From assembly GCA_017556045.1 (NCBI GenBank), contig JAFZFF010000036.1:1-53793 (forward strand): DNA of 53,793 nt. The letters are read 5' to 3'. Source of the DNA: Bacteroidaceae bacterium. Its GTDB lineage: Bacteria; Bacteroidota; Bacteroidia; Bacteroidales; Bacteroidaceae. The notes below the pieces were generated by a model. That model was not told the DNA's origin, did no database searches, and saw only the letters and a list, made by a program, of their open reading frames with translations. How positions within the stretch are numbered: the stretch's first letter is position 1; each line of letters opens with the position of its first letter. This document shows positions 868 to 4,054 of the stretch, in pieces. The position numbers and the translations under genes are program-made.

Positions 868-899
868 TTTGTGGTGACAGCGAATGTTTTGTACCTTCG
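868..899 (+). promoter_or_regulatory. Bacteroidetes-type promoter upstream of the dam remnant
   Basis: TTTG at 868-871, a 20-base spacer and TACCTTCG at 892-899 match the -33/-7 arrangement with one substitution in the -7 box. It lies 22 bases before the ATG of the Dam pseudogene and could now drive the DpnI-like gene. Confidence 0.55.
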
Positions 900-921
900 C
901 AAAAGATTTATAAACACAACT

Positions 922-1056
922 ATGGCTAAGGCAAAACCTTTCATCAAGTGGGTTGGTGGTAAAGGCTAGCTCATCGAACAACTCGAAGCATTGCTTCCTG
1001 CTGACCTTGATAAAAGGGAGAACGTTACCTACATAGAGCTTAATAGGAATGAATAA
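922..1056 (+). pseudogene. Dam-type DNA adenine methylase remnant (nonsense mutation plus internal deletion)
   Basis: Translation from ATG 922 gives MAKAKPFIKWVGGKG, then TAG, then LIEQLEALLPADLDKRE and NVTYIE. This is the start of a D12-class N6-adenine methylase, with the FxKWxGGK AdoMet-binding motif. The TAG at 967-969 is one C-to-T change from the CAG (Gln) expected after GGKG. After TYIE the expected PFVGGG is missing, and the frame runs straight into LNRNE and TAA, which looks like the original C-terminus. About 200 or more codons, including the DPPY catalytic motif, are therefore deleted in frame. The gene cannot make an active methylase. It ends 5 bases before the DpnI-like gene. Confidence 0.8.
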
Positions 1057-1061
1057 CACAA

Positions 1062-1835
1062 ATGGACTTACGATTCAATACATCACTTGCTGAAGGATAT
1101 AAGAGCGCGGCTCAGATAGCAAGGGTGCTGACTGAAGACTGGTTCGCACGCAATATGTATTGTCCTATTTGTGGTGAGCTTTCAATCAAAAGAGCAGAGC
1201 CAAATGCTCCCGTAAAGGATTATATCTGTGGCAATTGCAAATCGCAATATGAGCTGAAAAGCAAGAAGGAGAATTCGGACAGATATACCACAAAGGTTAA
1301 TGATGGGGTTTATCGCACGATGATAGAGCGTATAACATCGCTTGACAATCCCAGTTTCTTTTTTATGCACTACGATTGTTATGAGGTGAATAATCTTATC
1401 ATCGTACCCAAATGCTTCTTTACTCCTAATGTTATTGAGAAGCGTAAGCCTTTAGATGCGGGTGCTAAAAGAGCTGGCTGGGAAGGGTGTAATATTTTGT
1501 TGAATAATGTTCCTGAGTTTGCTAAAATCCCCATCATAAAGAATGGTATAGCCTTGAACCCTAAAGATGTTTGCAAGCAATACAATCATGTTTTTTCGCT
1601 TCAAACCAATAGCATAGAAAGCAGAGGATGGCTGATGGATGTGCTGAGTTGTGTTGAACGACTTGATGAGACATTTACACTAAAGCAAATGTATGATTTT
1701 GTGAATGAATTGGGCGTAAAGCATCCCAATAACAATAACATAGAAGCTAAAATTCGTCAACAACTTCAGTTCCTGCGCGATAAGGGATTTATAGATTTCA
1801 CAACGCGTGGTAATTATAAAAAAATAGGATTATGA
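1062..1835 (+). CDS. DpnI-like methylation-dependent restriction endonuclease
   Basis: The 257-residue protein aligns along its whole length with DpnI of Streptococcus (about 254 residues), which cuts GATC only when the adenine is methylated. The N-terminal PD-(D/E)xK domain has the catalytic residues at the same numbers as I recall for DpnI: Asp53 (VKDYIC), Glu64 and Lys66 (ELKSKK). A zinc site is formed by Cys34, Cys37, Cys56 and Cys59. The C-terminal winged helix that reads methyl-adenine is recognisable from KIRQQLQFLRDKGFIDF. ATG 1062 gives the DpnI-like start MDLRFN. It follows the dam remnant by 5 bases and overlaps the next small gene by 4 bases. Such an enzyme is lethal to a Dam-methylating host, which fits the broken dam. 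Cleavage specificity is inferred from homology. Confidence 0.92.
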   Translation: MDLRFNTSLAEGYKSAAQIARVLTEDWFARNMYCPICGELSIKRAEPNAPVKDYICGNCKSQYELKSKKENSDRYTTKVNDGVYRTMIERITSLDNPSFFFMHYDCYEVNNLIIVPKCFFTPNVIEKRKPLDAGAKRAGWEGCNILLNNVPEFAKIPIIKNGIALNPKDVCKQYNHVFSLQTNSIESRGWLMDVLSCVERLDETFTLKQMYDFVNELGVKHPNNNNIEAKIRQQLQFLRDKGFIDFTTRGNYKKIGL

Positions 1836-2041
1836 ACGAATATATCTTTTATACAACCGAGGGGAAGACTCTTGCTCCTAATGTCGATTATGACATAGAA
1901 AATTGCCAGGTCTTGGGTTTTGCAAAGGGCCAGGATGCTCGACAAGCAGAAGATAACTTGTTGAATGCGAATCCTTGGATAACAGAGGCTGGGTTCAGTC
2001 GCGAGTGCATTATTTCGCGACAAGTCATAACAAAAGTGTAA
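1832..2041 (+). CDS. Small conserved-looking protein coupled to the DpnI-like gene
   Basis: The 69-residue protein starts with ATG overlapping the TGA stop of the DpnI-like gene (ATGA), a classic translational coupling. It begins NEYIFYTTEGKTLAPN and contains NCQVLGFAKG and NPWITEAGF, with no signal peptide or membrane segment. Its composition is that of a normal soluble protein, and similar short proteins occur in many bacteria, but I cannot name a function. It could be an accessory of the restriction enzyme or simply co-transcribed. Confidence 0.65.
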   Translation: MNEYIFYTTEGKTLAPNVDYDIENCQVLGFAKGQDARQAEDNLLNANPWITEAGFSRECIISRQVITKV

Positions 2042-2055
2042 TATCTCGTAACAAT

Positions 2056-3390
2056 ATGATTGAGAAACAAAATATTGAGTGGAAAGAAAATTGGCGAGAC
2101 GAGTATCTTAAGTGGATATGTGGTTTTGCTAATGCTGTGGGTGGAAAACTATATATCGGTAAGGATGACAATGGAAATGTTGTCAAGGTTGATAATATAA
2201 AGAAGCTATCAGAAGATATTCCCAATAAGGTACGTGATGTCCTTGGTATTATAGTTGATGTCAATATCCTTGAAGAGAATGGTGTGGAATATCTTGAAAT
2301 AGATGTCCCTCCATATTCCAACCCTATCAATTATAAAGGGCAATACCATTATCGTTCGGGAAGCACCAAGCAAGAGTTGAAGGGAGCTGCCTTGAATCGC
2401 TTTATCTTACAACGTACTGGTAAGAACTGGGATGACTTCCCTGTGGCTGGCGTTACTGTAGACAGCCTTTCTGACTCTGCTCTAAATCGTTTTCGGAAGG
2501 AGGCCGCTAAGAGTAATCGTGTAGATGAAGAAGTGTTGCACGACTCTATCGCACACCTACTTGAGGATTTGCGGCTTATAGATGAAGAAACTGGGCAATT
2601 AAGCAGAGCTGCTACATTGCTTTTCCATCCTACTCCCGAGAAGTACATCAGAGGGGCATATATTAAAATTGGTTTTTTCAAGTCTGACAACGAAGACCTT
2701 GCCTTTCAAGATGAAGTCCACGGTTCATTGATGGAGCAAATAGAAAAATCTATTGATTTGATCAAGACTAAGTATCTTATTTATAGCATCTCATACGAGG
2801 GGGTCTCAAGACGCGAAACTCCACAATTCCCATTAGAAGCTATACGAGAGTCTTTGATGAATGCCATTGCTCACAAAGATTATTCCGATGCTACACCTAT
2901 TCAAATCAGTGTATATCCAAATCATATAGTCTTTTGGAATGCTGGTAAATTACCTGAGGATTGGACAACAGAACGATTGTTTGAGAAACATCCTTCAAAA
3001 CCATATAATCCTTCTATTGCCAATACGCTTTTTCGATGTGGAGATATTGAAAGCTGGGGTCGCGGATATAAACGCATTATCGATGCTGTAGCCTCATATA
3101 ATTTGTTGCCTCCCATTATTGAGATTGTAAGCGGACTTATGATTACATATTACACCGACGTACATTCTCAACTGAAAGCACAAAAGATAGATGATAAATA
3201 TTGTCCAATAATAGAGTTTGTTGTCAAAAATGGAGGTATCACCAACACTGATGTTCAAAATATCATGAAAGTAAGTAAGCCTACCGCTACTCGAATTCTC
3301 CAATCTCTTGATTCCTTGTTGGAGAAACAAGGAACATCGGGAAAAGGCGTTTACTATAGACTAATAGGCTCACTAAAGGCTCAAAAATAA
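2056..3390 (+). CDS. AlbA_2 (Schlafen-type)/HATPase domain putative regulator or DNA-binding protein
   Basis: The 444-residue protein starts at ATG 2056 (MIEKQNIEWKENWRDEYLKW); an open frame exists upstream, but this start gives the usual AlbA_2 beginning. Residues about 1-115 form the Schlafen AlbA_2 domain, with FANAVGGKLYIGKDDNG and YRSGSTKQEL. Residues about 255-370 resemble the HATPase_c_4 domain (EAIRESLMNAIAHKDY, then GRGYKRI). The C-terminus, about 385-435, is a winged helix (NTDVQNIMKVSKPTATRILQ). Such proteins are usually annotated as ATP-binding proteins, transcriptional regulators or RecG-like. It follows the DpnI cassette by 14 bases and is probably co-transcribed, so it may control or assist the restriction island. 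Confidence 0.8.
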   Translation: MIEKQNIEWKENWRDEYLKWICGFANAVGGKLYIGKDDNGNVVKVDNIKKLSEDIPNKVRDVLGIIVDVNILEENGVEYLEIDVPPYSNPINYKGQYHYRSGSTKQELKGAALNRFILQRTGKNWDDFPVAGVTVDSLSDSALNRFRKEAAKSNRVDEEVLHDSIAHLLEDLRLIDEETGQLSRAATLLFHPTPEKYIRGAYIKIGFFKSDNEDLAFQDEVHGSLMEQIEKSIDLIKTKYLIYSISYEGVSRRETPQFPLEAIRESLMNAIAHKDYSDATPIQISVYPNHIVFWNAGKLPEDWTTERLFEKHPSKPYNPSIANTLFRCGDIESWGRGYKRIIDAVASYNLLPPIIEIVSGLMITYYTDVHSQLKAQKIDDKYCPIIEFVVKNGGITNTDVQNIMKVSKPTATRILQSLDSLLEKQGTSGKGVYYRLIGSLKAQK

Positions 3391-3589
3391 AACTAAACGA
3401 CACGCCTATATTATGTAACTCATTATATAATAGATGTTTATAAACTAAGCAATTGGCTCATAAAAGGCTCATTATATCTTAAAAGATACGTAAAACACTT
3501 GTGGTTACAGATGTAAACCTTCATCAACGCGCTTACACCAATGTCGCCAAGATTAGGCCGTTGAGTGATTTTGTTAGTATAAGATAAAC
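3391..3589 (+). other. Short intergenic stretch with a possible gene remnant
   Basis: Near 3500-3585 a frame reads VTDVNLHQRAYTNVAKIRP and ends in TAA without a convincing start. It could be the tail of a lost protein. I cannot identify it and see no promoter match. Confidence 0.3.
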
Positions 3590-4054
3590 ATGTCTATTAT
3601 GAATAAAAACCTATCCCAAATGATATCAGCTCATGCTTACGACGAGATAGTGAGCAAGGTGAAAGAGTATGTAGGCGAAGAGGCTTTGGAGTATATCCTT
3701 CCTGGTGTTATTAAGGCGCTTGAGGAGGGTGACGGAGTCGTTCGTGAGGAGGTCCTCAGTGGGTGGCTCGATGTGGAGTCTATGCGTGTGTGCACCCATT
3801 GTGGGGCTATCATGGAGGAGGGCTGGTATATGGAGTGTGGCGGCTATGCTTGTAGCGATGAGTGTGCCGCGCAGAGTGTAGGACTCACCATGGAGGAGTT
3901 TGCCAAATGGCGCATATATAAGGCGGATATCGTGGAGTATCTCAAACAATCGGATGACCCGCGCGACATCAATGAACTATCTGCTGAGGAGTGTGAGAAG
4001 ATTATCGAGCAGATTGCTCTTCGATGCGATTCTTGCTGGACGGAGTGGTACTGA
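3590..4054 (+). CDS. Hypothetical protein with a cysteine-rich, zinc-finger-like motif
   Basis: The 154-residue acidic protein has an N-terminal helical region (SAHAYDEIVSKVKEYVGEEA), then a cluster CTHCG, CGGYACSDEC at about residues 66-92 that looks like a treble-clef or zinc-ribbon site. The C-terminal part is helical, with another Cys pair (CDSCW). No signal peptide or membrane segment is visible. ATG 3599 (MNK) is an alternative start. It stands alone between the restriction island and the hairpin array. I do not recognise the family; a nucleic-acid-binding accessory protein is possible. Confidence 0.65.
   Translation: MSIMNKNLSQMISAHAYDEIVSKVKEYVGEEALEYILPGVIKALEEGDGVVREEVLSGWLDVESMRVCTHCGAIMEEGWYMECGGYACSDECAAQSVGLTMEEFAKWRIYKADIVEYLKQSDDPRDINELSAEECEKIIEQIALRCDSCWTEWY

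Follow-up and report, generated by a model that had tools for sequence, protein, structure and literature searches.

The window, by which we mean the whole stretch of 53,793 nucleotides analyzed here (G000:C15:1-53793), begins at a contig edge of a draft genome (2.54 Mb in 104 contigs, approximately 78% complete) and very probably contains a former DpnII locus (dam, R.DpnII, a further nuclease, and dpnA) whose middle was replaced by a dpnI cassette, with the left break falling within dam, behind codon 39, and the right one within dpnA, at a distance of 24 codons from its end. That the locus is a fossil of a switch between DpnII and DpnI had been put forward in the original prediction, and this part of it is now supported by scars on both sides of the cassette, by pairs of loci at the same site in relatives, and by damage to dam in 14 of 14 cases upstream of dpnI vs 0 of 21 beside a complete R.DpnII.

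Remnants of two methylases on either side of dpnI

On the left, positions 922 to 1039 of the forward strand hold codons 1 to 39 of the gene for a Dam methylase of the GATC type. The N-terminus of Dam, read over 922-1053 as 44 residues with an X at the stop, is matched by TIGR00571 (dam, E = 2.9e-5), and the 118 bp of the scar (922-1039) share 95.8% DNA identity with the intact dam of locus L118 (genome G135) as well as 93.4% over 121 bp with the dam of L120 (G007, same genus), so that the predicted Dam-type remnant is confirmed by alignment with relatives that keep an intact dam. The stop codon reported after GGKG is likewise present: TAG at 967-969, codon 16 of dam, where L118 has CAA. Four codons of the scar are changed relative to L118, the TAG being the sole nonsense change; F29 is altered in the window copy. 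Other details of the original reading had to be revised, as the ATG of dam is at 922 and not at 868, no in-frame deletion of the catalytic part exists (dam homology simply ends at 1039, i.e., at nt 118 in codon 39), and dam is not fused to dpnI, the frame of the remnant closing before a separate dpnI ATG. The residues LNRNE and the stop codon that follow the break bear, by eye in the dam alignment, no likeness to any Dam C-terminus. Truncated after codon 39 and interrupted at codon 16, the window dam is incomplete as a methylase and has neither the DPPY motif nor the recognition loop; the remnant is dead, and its damage, as read from the sequence, is a 3' truncation.

The junction or leader between the dam scar and dpnI (1040..1061, forward strand) has no match to dam and, in a comparison by eye, is absent upstream of 8 other dpnI loci. 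Thirty nucleotides before the dam start lies a Bacteroidales promoter-like box (TACCTTCG, 892..899, forward strand), a candidate promoter, by its likeness to the Bacteroidales -7 consensus, that may now drive dpnI. The motif TAnnTTYG was found at most 110 bp upstream of 15 of 27 dam starts (one of which, in L213, had been placed off its ATG), compared to a background of approximately 0.08 per 110 bp of window. The 5' end of dam was probably retained for its promoter and start region, which would now serve dpnI, and it may also have acted as a homology arm for the exchange, which would then have occurred by homologous recombination.

The dpnI homolog itself (1062..1835, forward strand) encodes a predicted methyl-directed Type IIM endonuclease of 257 aa, which, in agreement with the original description, is full length and has its catalytic residues. 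It aligns with DpnI from the PDB (4esj, E = 1.1e-71) over 255 of 257 residues; the Pfam families DpnI (PF06044) and DpnI_C (PF17726), corresponding to the catalytic domain and the C-terminal winged helix, both score well over the cut-off; and the PADLOC model for methyl-directed REases matches with E = 2.6e-92. D53, E64, and K66, which align with the catalytic PD-(D/E)xK site, are all present. The G+C content of dpnI is 38.9% vs 48.6% for window positions 4401-53793. Overlapping the dpnI stop, a 69-aa ORF that we term smB (1832..2041, forward strand) represents a small partner recurring after dpnI in several phyla. It was found downstream of dpnI in Bacteroidales, Clostridiales, Spirochaetales, and Gastranaerophilales, and also downstream of the HARE-HTH nuclease described below; no Pfam family reaches the cut-off for smB, and its structure model is confident but has no clear fold match. 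The third ORF inside the replaced segment (2056..3390, forward strand; 444 aa) is Schlafen AlbA_2-like with a RecG-like C-terminus, and is also found after dpnI in L032.

On the right, positions 3513 to 3587 of the forward strand encode VNLHQRAYTNVAKIRPLSDFVSIR followed by a stop codon, which correspond to the last 24 codons and the stop of a second, DpnA-type methylase (87.5% protein identity to the last 24 residues of L118 DpnA; E = 3e-9 in a search across all loci collected by then). The same dpnA tail lies downstream of dpnI and smB in L033 (genome G011, same genus). The adjoining right-hand flanking ORF (3590..4054, forward strand) is common to the intact DpnII locus L118, and the right flank of the window is 76.5% identical to the sequence after dpnA in L118 over 558 bp, dpnA tail included. 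With the dam scar on the left and the dpnA scar on the right, both order and strand are as expected of a former DpnII locus, which places dpnI, smB, and the Schlafen-like gene between what is left of the ends of a dam-R.DpnII-dpnA locus. Window positions 1040 to approximately 3512 occupy the place that in L118 is taken by the remainder of dam, by R.DpnII and one more ORF, and by nearly all of dpnA. No match to R.DpnII was found in the first 20 kb of the window, as is expected if the middle of the locus was replaced. While the anatomy of a dam remnant preceding an intact dpnI had thus been recognized in the original prediction, the C-terminal dpnA scar at 3513-3587 had been overlooked.

DpnI enzymes cut Gm6ATC. 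The window enzyme is accordingly predicted, from its sequence, to cut incoming double-stranded DNA carrying Gm6ATC, i.e., phage DNA or other foreign DNA that comes from Dam-positive bacteria. Survival of the host would be possible because its own GATC sites would be unmethylated once dam and dpnA were gone, and a swap reaching from inside dam to inside dpnA would remove both methylases and install dpnI at once, so that the conflict between them would be avoided. The frequency of GATC in the window is low, at 0.39 of expected, but so is that in the DpnII-bearing loci L117 and L118. CTAG is almost missing from positions 1-53793 (0.05 of expected).

DpnII and dpnI loci in relatives

For comparison, 31 dam loci were studied (28 from relatives and 3 added later), which were mostly picked by similarity to long dam, so that the sample favors intact copies. 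The common gene order in relatives is dam, R.DpnII, often a further nuclease, and dpnA; R.DpnII of L105 belongs to PF04556 (E = 1.3e-100), and the extra ORF in L110 is MutH-like. R.DpnII was aligned over at least 265 residues in 21 of the 31 loci, each of which has a full-length dam that includes DPPY and the C-terminal block; in L125 and L250, dam and R.DpnII are both broken. The closest intact relatives of the window dam remnant are found in loci carrying R.DpnII, so that the suggestion, also made originally, that the remnant derives from a decayed regulator methylase finds no support. Fragments of the dam 5' end also occur without dpnI, either before ORF6N-like genes or where no nuclease was recognized (L164, L223, L127), and a dam scar alone is therefore no proof of dpnI.

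A set of 44 dpnI loci was enlarged by further ones and, with duplicates taken out, 53 dpnI loci including the window were examined, most of them from metagenome assemblies. A dam match at most 1.7 kb upstream of dpnI was identified in 14 of these (13 Bacteroidales and Stenoxybacter acetivorans DSM 19021), and none in the other 39, some of which end early at contig edges. All 14 dam copies are damaged, with approximately 10 different endpoints, while dpnI is an open reading frame in each case. Ten of the copies are cut after 39 to 185 codons (39 in the window, 41 in L044, 52 in L024 and L045, 54 in L047, 58 in L032 and L034, 95 in L040, approximately 132 in L038, and 185 in L043), and L038, L040, and L045 by eye retain a few codons of the dam 3' end. 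The dams of L026, L039, and L042 are seemingly full length but lack the C-terminal block, and that of S. acetivorans, the record of which is not marked as a MAG, stops at approximately 245 aa just before dpnI. The 13 Bacteroidales remnants share 78-96% DNA identity with their best intact match. Between dam and dpnI, 9 of the 14 loci contain a whole or partial KilA-N gene. The KilA-N protein encoded between the damaged dam and dpnI in L039 (3488-4309) matches the PADLOC candidate PDC-S22 (E = 2.5e-132).

Furthermore, two pairs of loci document alternative contents at the same site. The flanks of L034 (dpnI) and L117 (DpnII) are 97-99% identical over approximately 6 kb, and the two loci differ in the segment that starts at codon 58 of dam and stops 30 codons short of the dpnA end; since its breaks are inside dam and dpnA, L034 keeps both methylase ends, as the window does. 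In the pair of L039 (dpnI) and L105 (DpnII), the arms are 93-96% identical, the right arm starting from dpnA codon 135, and L042 and L024 have dam and dpnA arms in common with L105 as well (84-91%). Fragments matching R.DpnII were found downstream of dpnI in L070 (Gastranaerophilales) and L066 (Spirochaetales), which suggests that a similar exchange may have occurred in other phyla.

In 5 dpnI loci (L022, L024, L035, L049, and L058), dpnA is seemingly complete or nearly so, which counts against the proposed replacement. The DpnA-type methylase downstream of dpnI in L035 (4444-5475) carries a DpnD-PcfM domain at its N-terminus (PF14207; the test covered this locus alone), and the dpnA genes downstream of dpnI in L022, L024, L049, and L058 are of the DpnA type, too. 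In the examined DpnII loci, dpnA matches mostly start past the position of the DpnD-PcfM domain.

Alternative explanations

The dam fragment might have been retained as a working element, such as a leader peptide, a translational coupling device, or a regulatory segment, and not as a passive scar. In line with this, at least 39 codons of the dam 5' end are kept in each of the 14 copies upstream of dpnI, and the 13 Bacteroidales remnants have diverged from their best intact matches only to the 78-96% DNA identity given above. A retained promoter, however, accounts equally well for the 5' bias, and a function of the fragment is difficult to reconcile with the stop at codon 16 and the changed F29 of the window copy, with kept lengths ranging from 39 to approximately 266 codons and differing frames after the break, and with the 39 of 53 dpnI loci that show no dam match upstream (some being limited by contig ends). 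We therefore regard this explanation as improbable. Slightly less probable still is a chance neighborhood, in which an old broken DpnII locus came to lie beside an unrelated dpnI insertion, or an assembly chimera of two strains. While the position of the window at a contig edge of an incomplete draft, the predominance of metagenome bins among the comparison loci, and the decay of dam without dpnI in L125, L127, and L250 would fit such an origin, a single cassette has a scar at either side, the one on the right is found again in another genome of the genus, and damaged dams precede dpnI in 13 Bacteroidales loci as well as in Stenoxybacter.

Replacement of the DpnII locus by a dpnI cassette thus being preferred, the order of events within it may have differed from a single swap: dam may have been damaged first through ordinary R-M loss, with dpnI entering only afterwards, when the cell no longer methylated GATC. 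Such an order is conceivable, given that broken dams without dpnI exist (again L125, L127, and L250) and that the codon-16 stop could predate the truncation, but we consider it less likely than not, as in the same-site pairs the replaced segment is uninterrupted and has dam and dpnA sequence at its two ends. The window itself shows no order.

Coexistence of dam and dpnI within genomes

While the result for adjacent genes is strong, the exclusion of dam and dpnI at the genome level is only a trend. Out of 52 genomes with a dpnI match, some of them partial, 24 have some Dam-family match and 2 were found with a complete GATC-type dam (G064 and G303). G064 has an intact DpnII system, and its dpnI contains 3 in-frame stops. 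G303 (bin SIG135) combines a complete DpnII system with an intact dpnI on a 5.9-kb contig, within one metagenome bin; it is a counterexample to exclusion unless it is mis-binned, and mis-binning or strain mixture is possible. The other longer Dam-family matches, when translated, have different recognition loops or lack the C-terminus, the weaker matches being classified only in part. Within a family sample of 301 genomes, none of the 12 that carry an intact dpnI (from 14 matches minus 1 pseudogene and 1 fragment) has an intact GATC-like dam (at least 248 bits, complete, and without stops), vs 55 of 289 others (one-sided p = 0.084). Most of the dam recognition loops that were read have NGLYR.N with FNVP, and 3 have GLF or GLH instead of GLY; a GATC-type loop is defined here by the residues with which Dam contacts GATC.

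As for another dam in the strain itself, which would bear on the original prediction, two further Dam-family genes are present in G000, an orphan on contig C80 and a more distant one on C26. Neither has a GATC-type loop, which amounts to a partial test in an assembly that is approximately 78% complete. The orphan methylase (L139, G000:C80:28944-29792) has an altered recognition loop, and similar matches are found in 12 of 19 genomes of the genus.

Relation to known systems

Alternation between DpnI and DpnII as well as truncation of dam by a DpnI gene are already known from Streptococcus and Neisseria, and the window is a well-documented new case; the comparisons in this section draw on excerpts of the cited reports. 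In Streptococcus pneumoniae, either a DpnI or a DpnII cassette occupies one locus (PMC3573125, PMC12707154), as the original prediction correctly stated, and DpnIII was added by PMC12707154. In contrast to these cassettes, the window keeps remnants of both methylases at its junctions, none of which are described for pneumococcus in the excerpts (PMC3573125, PMC12707154). The drg ("dam replacing gene") of Neisseria, a low-G+C gene for a DpnI-type Gm6ATC endonuclease, is inserted at dam in the leuS/dam locus and truncates dam in several strains; dam and drg were mutually exclusive in 84 isolates, and in three gonococcal genomes drg is followed by a DpnIIB-like enzyme (PMC4269198, PMC516771). The window resembles drg in that a low-G+C DpnI-type gene is located at a truncated dam, but differs from it in that the replaced locus is a DpnII-type R-M system with dam and dpnA scars, in the Bacteroidales host, and in the many break points.

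A GATC m6A methylase of the Pin25611FII / M1.Pin17FII locus of Prevotella intermedia was shown by cloning (ATCC 25611); in place of the REase, strain 17F has at that locus a 1.85-kb region that includes a second methylase (PMC5608340). Unlike the window, this locus keeps GATC methylated, and the excerpts mention no DpnI homolog of its own (PMC5608340). Among the PD-(D/E)XK-wH endonucleases of Bacteroidota and Moraxella, a DpnI-like gene was noted whose neighbor, a predicted 4mC or 6mA methylase, carries an inactivating frame shift, and FcyTI, a DpnI-like enzyme from Bacteroidota, lowered transformation more than 1,000-fold in a Dam-positive host (PMC11037411). In the excerpts, the inactivated methylases are the subject of a brief remark, unlike the present case with its allelic series, same-site pairs, and identified Dam/DpnII source. 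Avoidance of GATC in DpnI-bearing, dam-negative strains is already known as well (PMC4687349). In the literature searched, which included few subscription papers and was in part available as excerpts, remnants of dam or dpnA next to dpnI were not described for Bacteroidales, the single line on a Bacteroidota isolate in PMC11037411 being the exception. As far as this search goes, the paired dam and dpnA scars, the graded break points, the Bacteroidales same-site pairs, and the HARE-HTH alternative described below are new.

In sequences of uncultured gut bacteria, the locus shows a possible route by which a cell could pass from methylating GATC and cutting unmethylated DNA to leaving GATC bare and cutting methylated DNA without killing itself, as the exchange removes the methylases. 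Moreover, the scar series and same-site pairs make it possible to study the DpnI/DpnII switch, for which pneumococcus and Neisseria have been the main examples, as a general type of immune-allele exchange, point to smB and the HARE-HTH nuclease as candidate partners, and predict which strains would reject DNA from ordinary Dam-positive E. coli.

A putative HARE-HTH nuclease in the DpnII slot

In addition to dpnI, an ORF of approximately 248 aa, combining HARE-HTH with a PD-(D/E)xK-like nuclease, was found in the DpnII slot of L126 (3810-4553, forward strand), and also in L165 and L197-L222. The flanks of L126 are 97% identical to those of the DpnII locus L124, with L126 having the 248-aa ORF after a dam cut at approximately 165 codons; L209 and L228 (dam, an ORF that is DUF6996/6997-like by resemblance, and dpnA) form a similar pair at 89-90%. 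The family is present in 28 of 301 genomes. A truncated dam was detected upstream in 7 of the 28 loci, one of the 7 matches covering only 29 residues, and the stretches fetched around the 28, some of which are short, contained no full dam. HARE-HTH (PF05066) was matched in 5 of 22 members scanned (best E = 6.5e-4), PADLOC gave a weak REase_II match, and sequence searches returned no convincing PDB match and no relationship to DpnI.

These loci suggest that the DpnII locus of gut Bacteroidales may be a frequently used exchange slot, where R-M systems with Dam give way to Dam-incompatible enzymes, and that the HARE-HTH family may be a second, independently evolved modified-GATC-dependent enzyme besides DpnI, a tentative proposal that we regard as slightly less likely than not. 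A dependence on GATC is called into question by an intact GATC-like dam kept in 2 of the 28 genomes, and, according to literature available in excerpts, what HARE-HTH senses may be marks on cytosine. An smB profile derived from dpnI loci only detects smB after 22 of 52 dpnI genes, 11 of these 22, the window included, having contributed to it; for HARE-HTH genes the count is 11 of 27, and for R.DpnII genes 0 of 20. Similarly, a DpnD-like profile, built from dpnI and HARE-HTH loci together, matches after 11 of 52 dpnI, 8 of 27 HARE-HTH, and 0 of 20 R.DpnII genes.

Finally, the dam 5' fragments of L164 (3706-4336) and L223 (3919-4352) are followed by genes that we take to be ORF6N-like, with no nuclease recognized, and these genes perhaps represent a further kind of cassette in the same slot.
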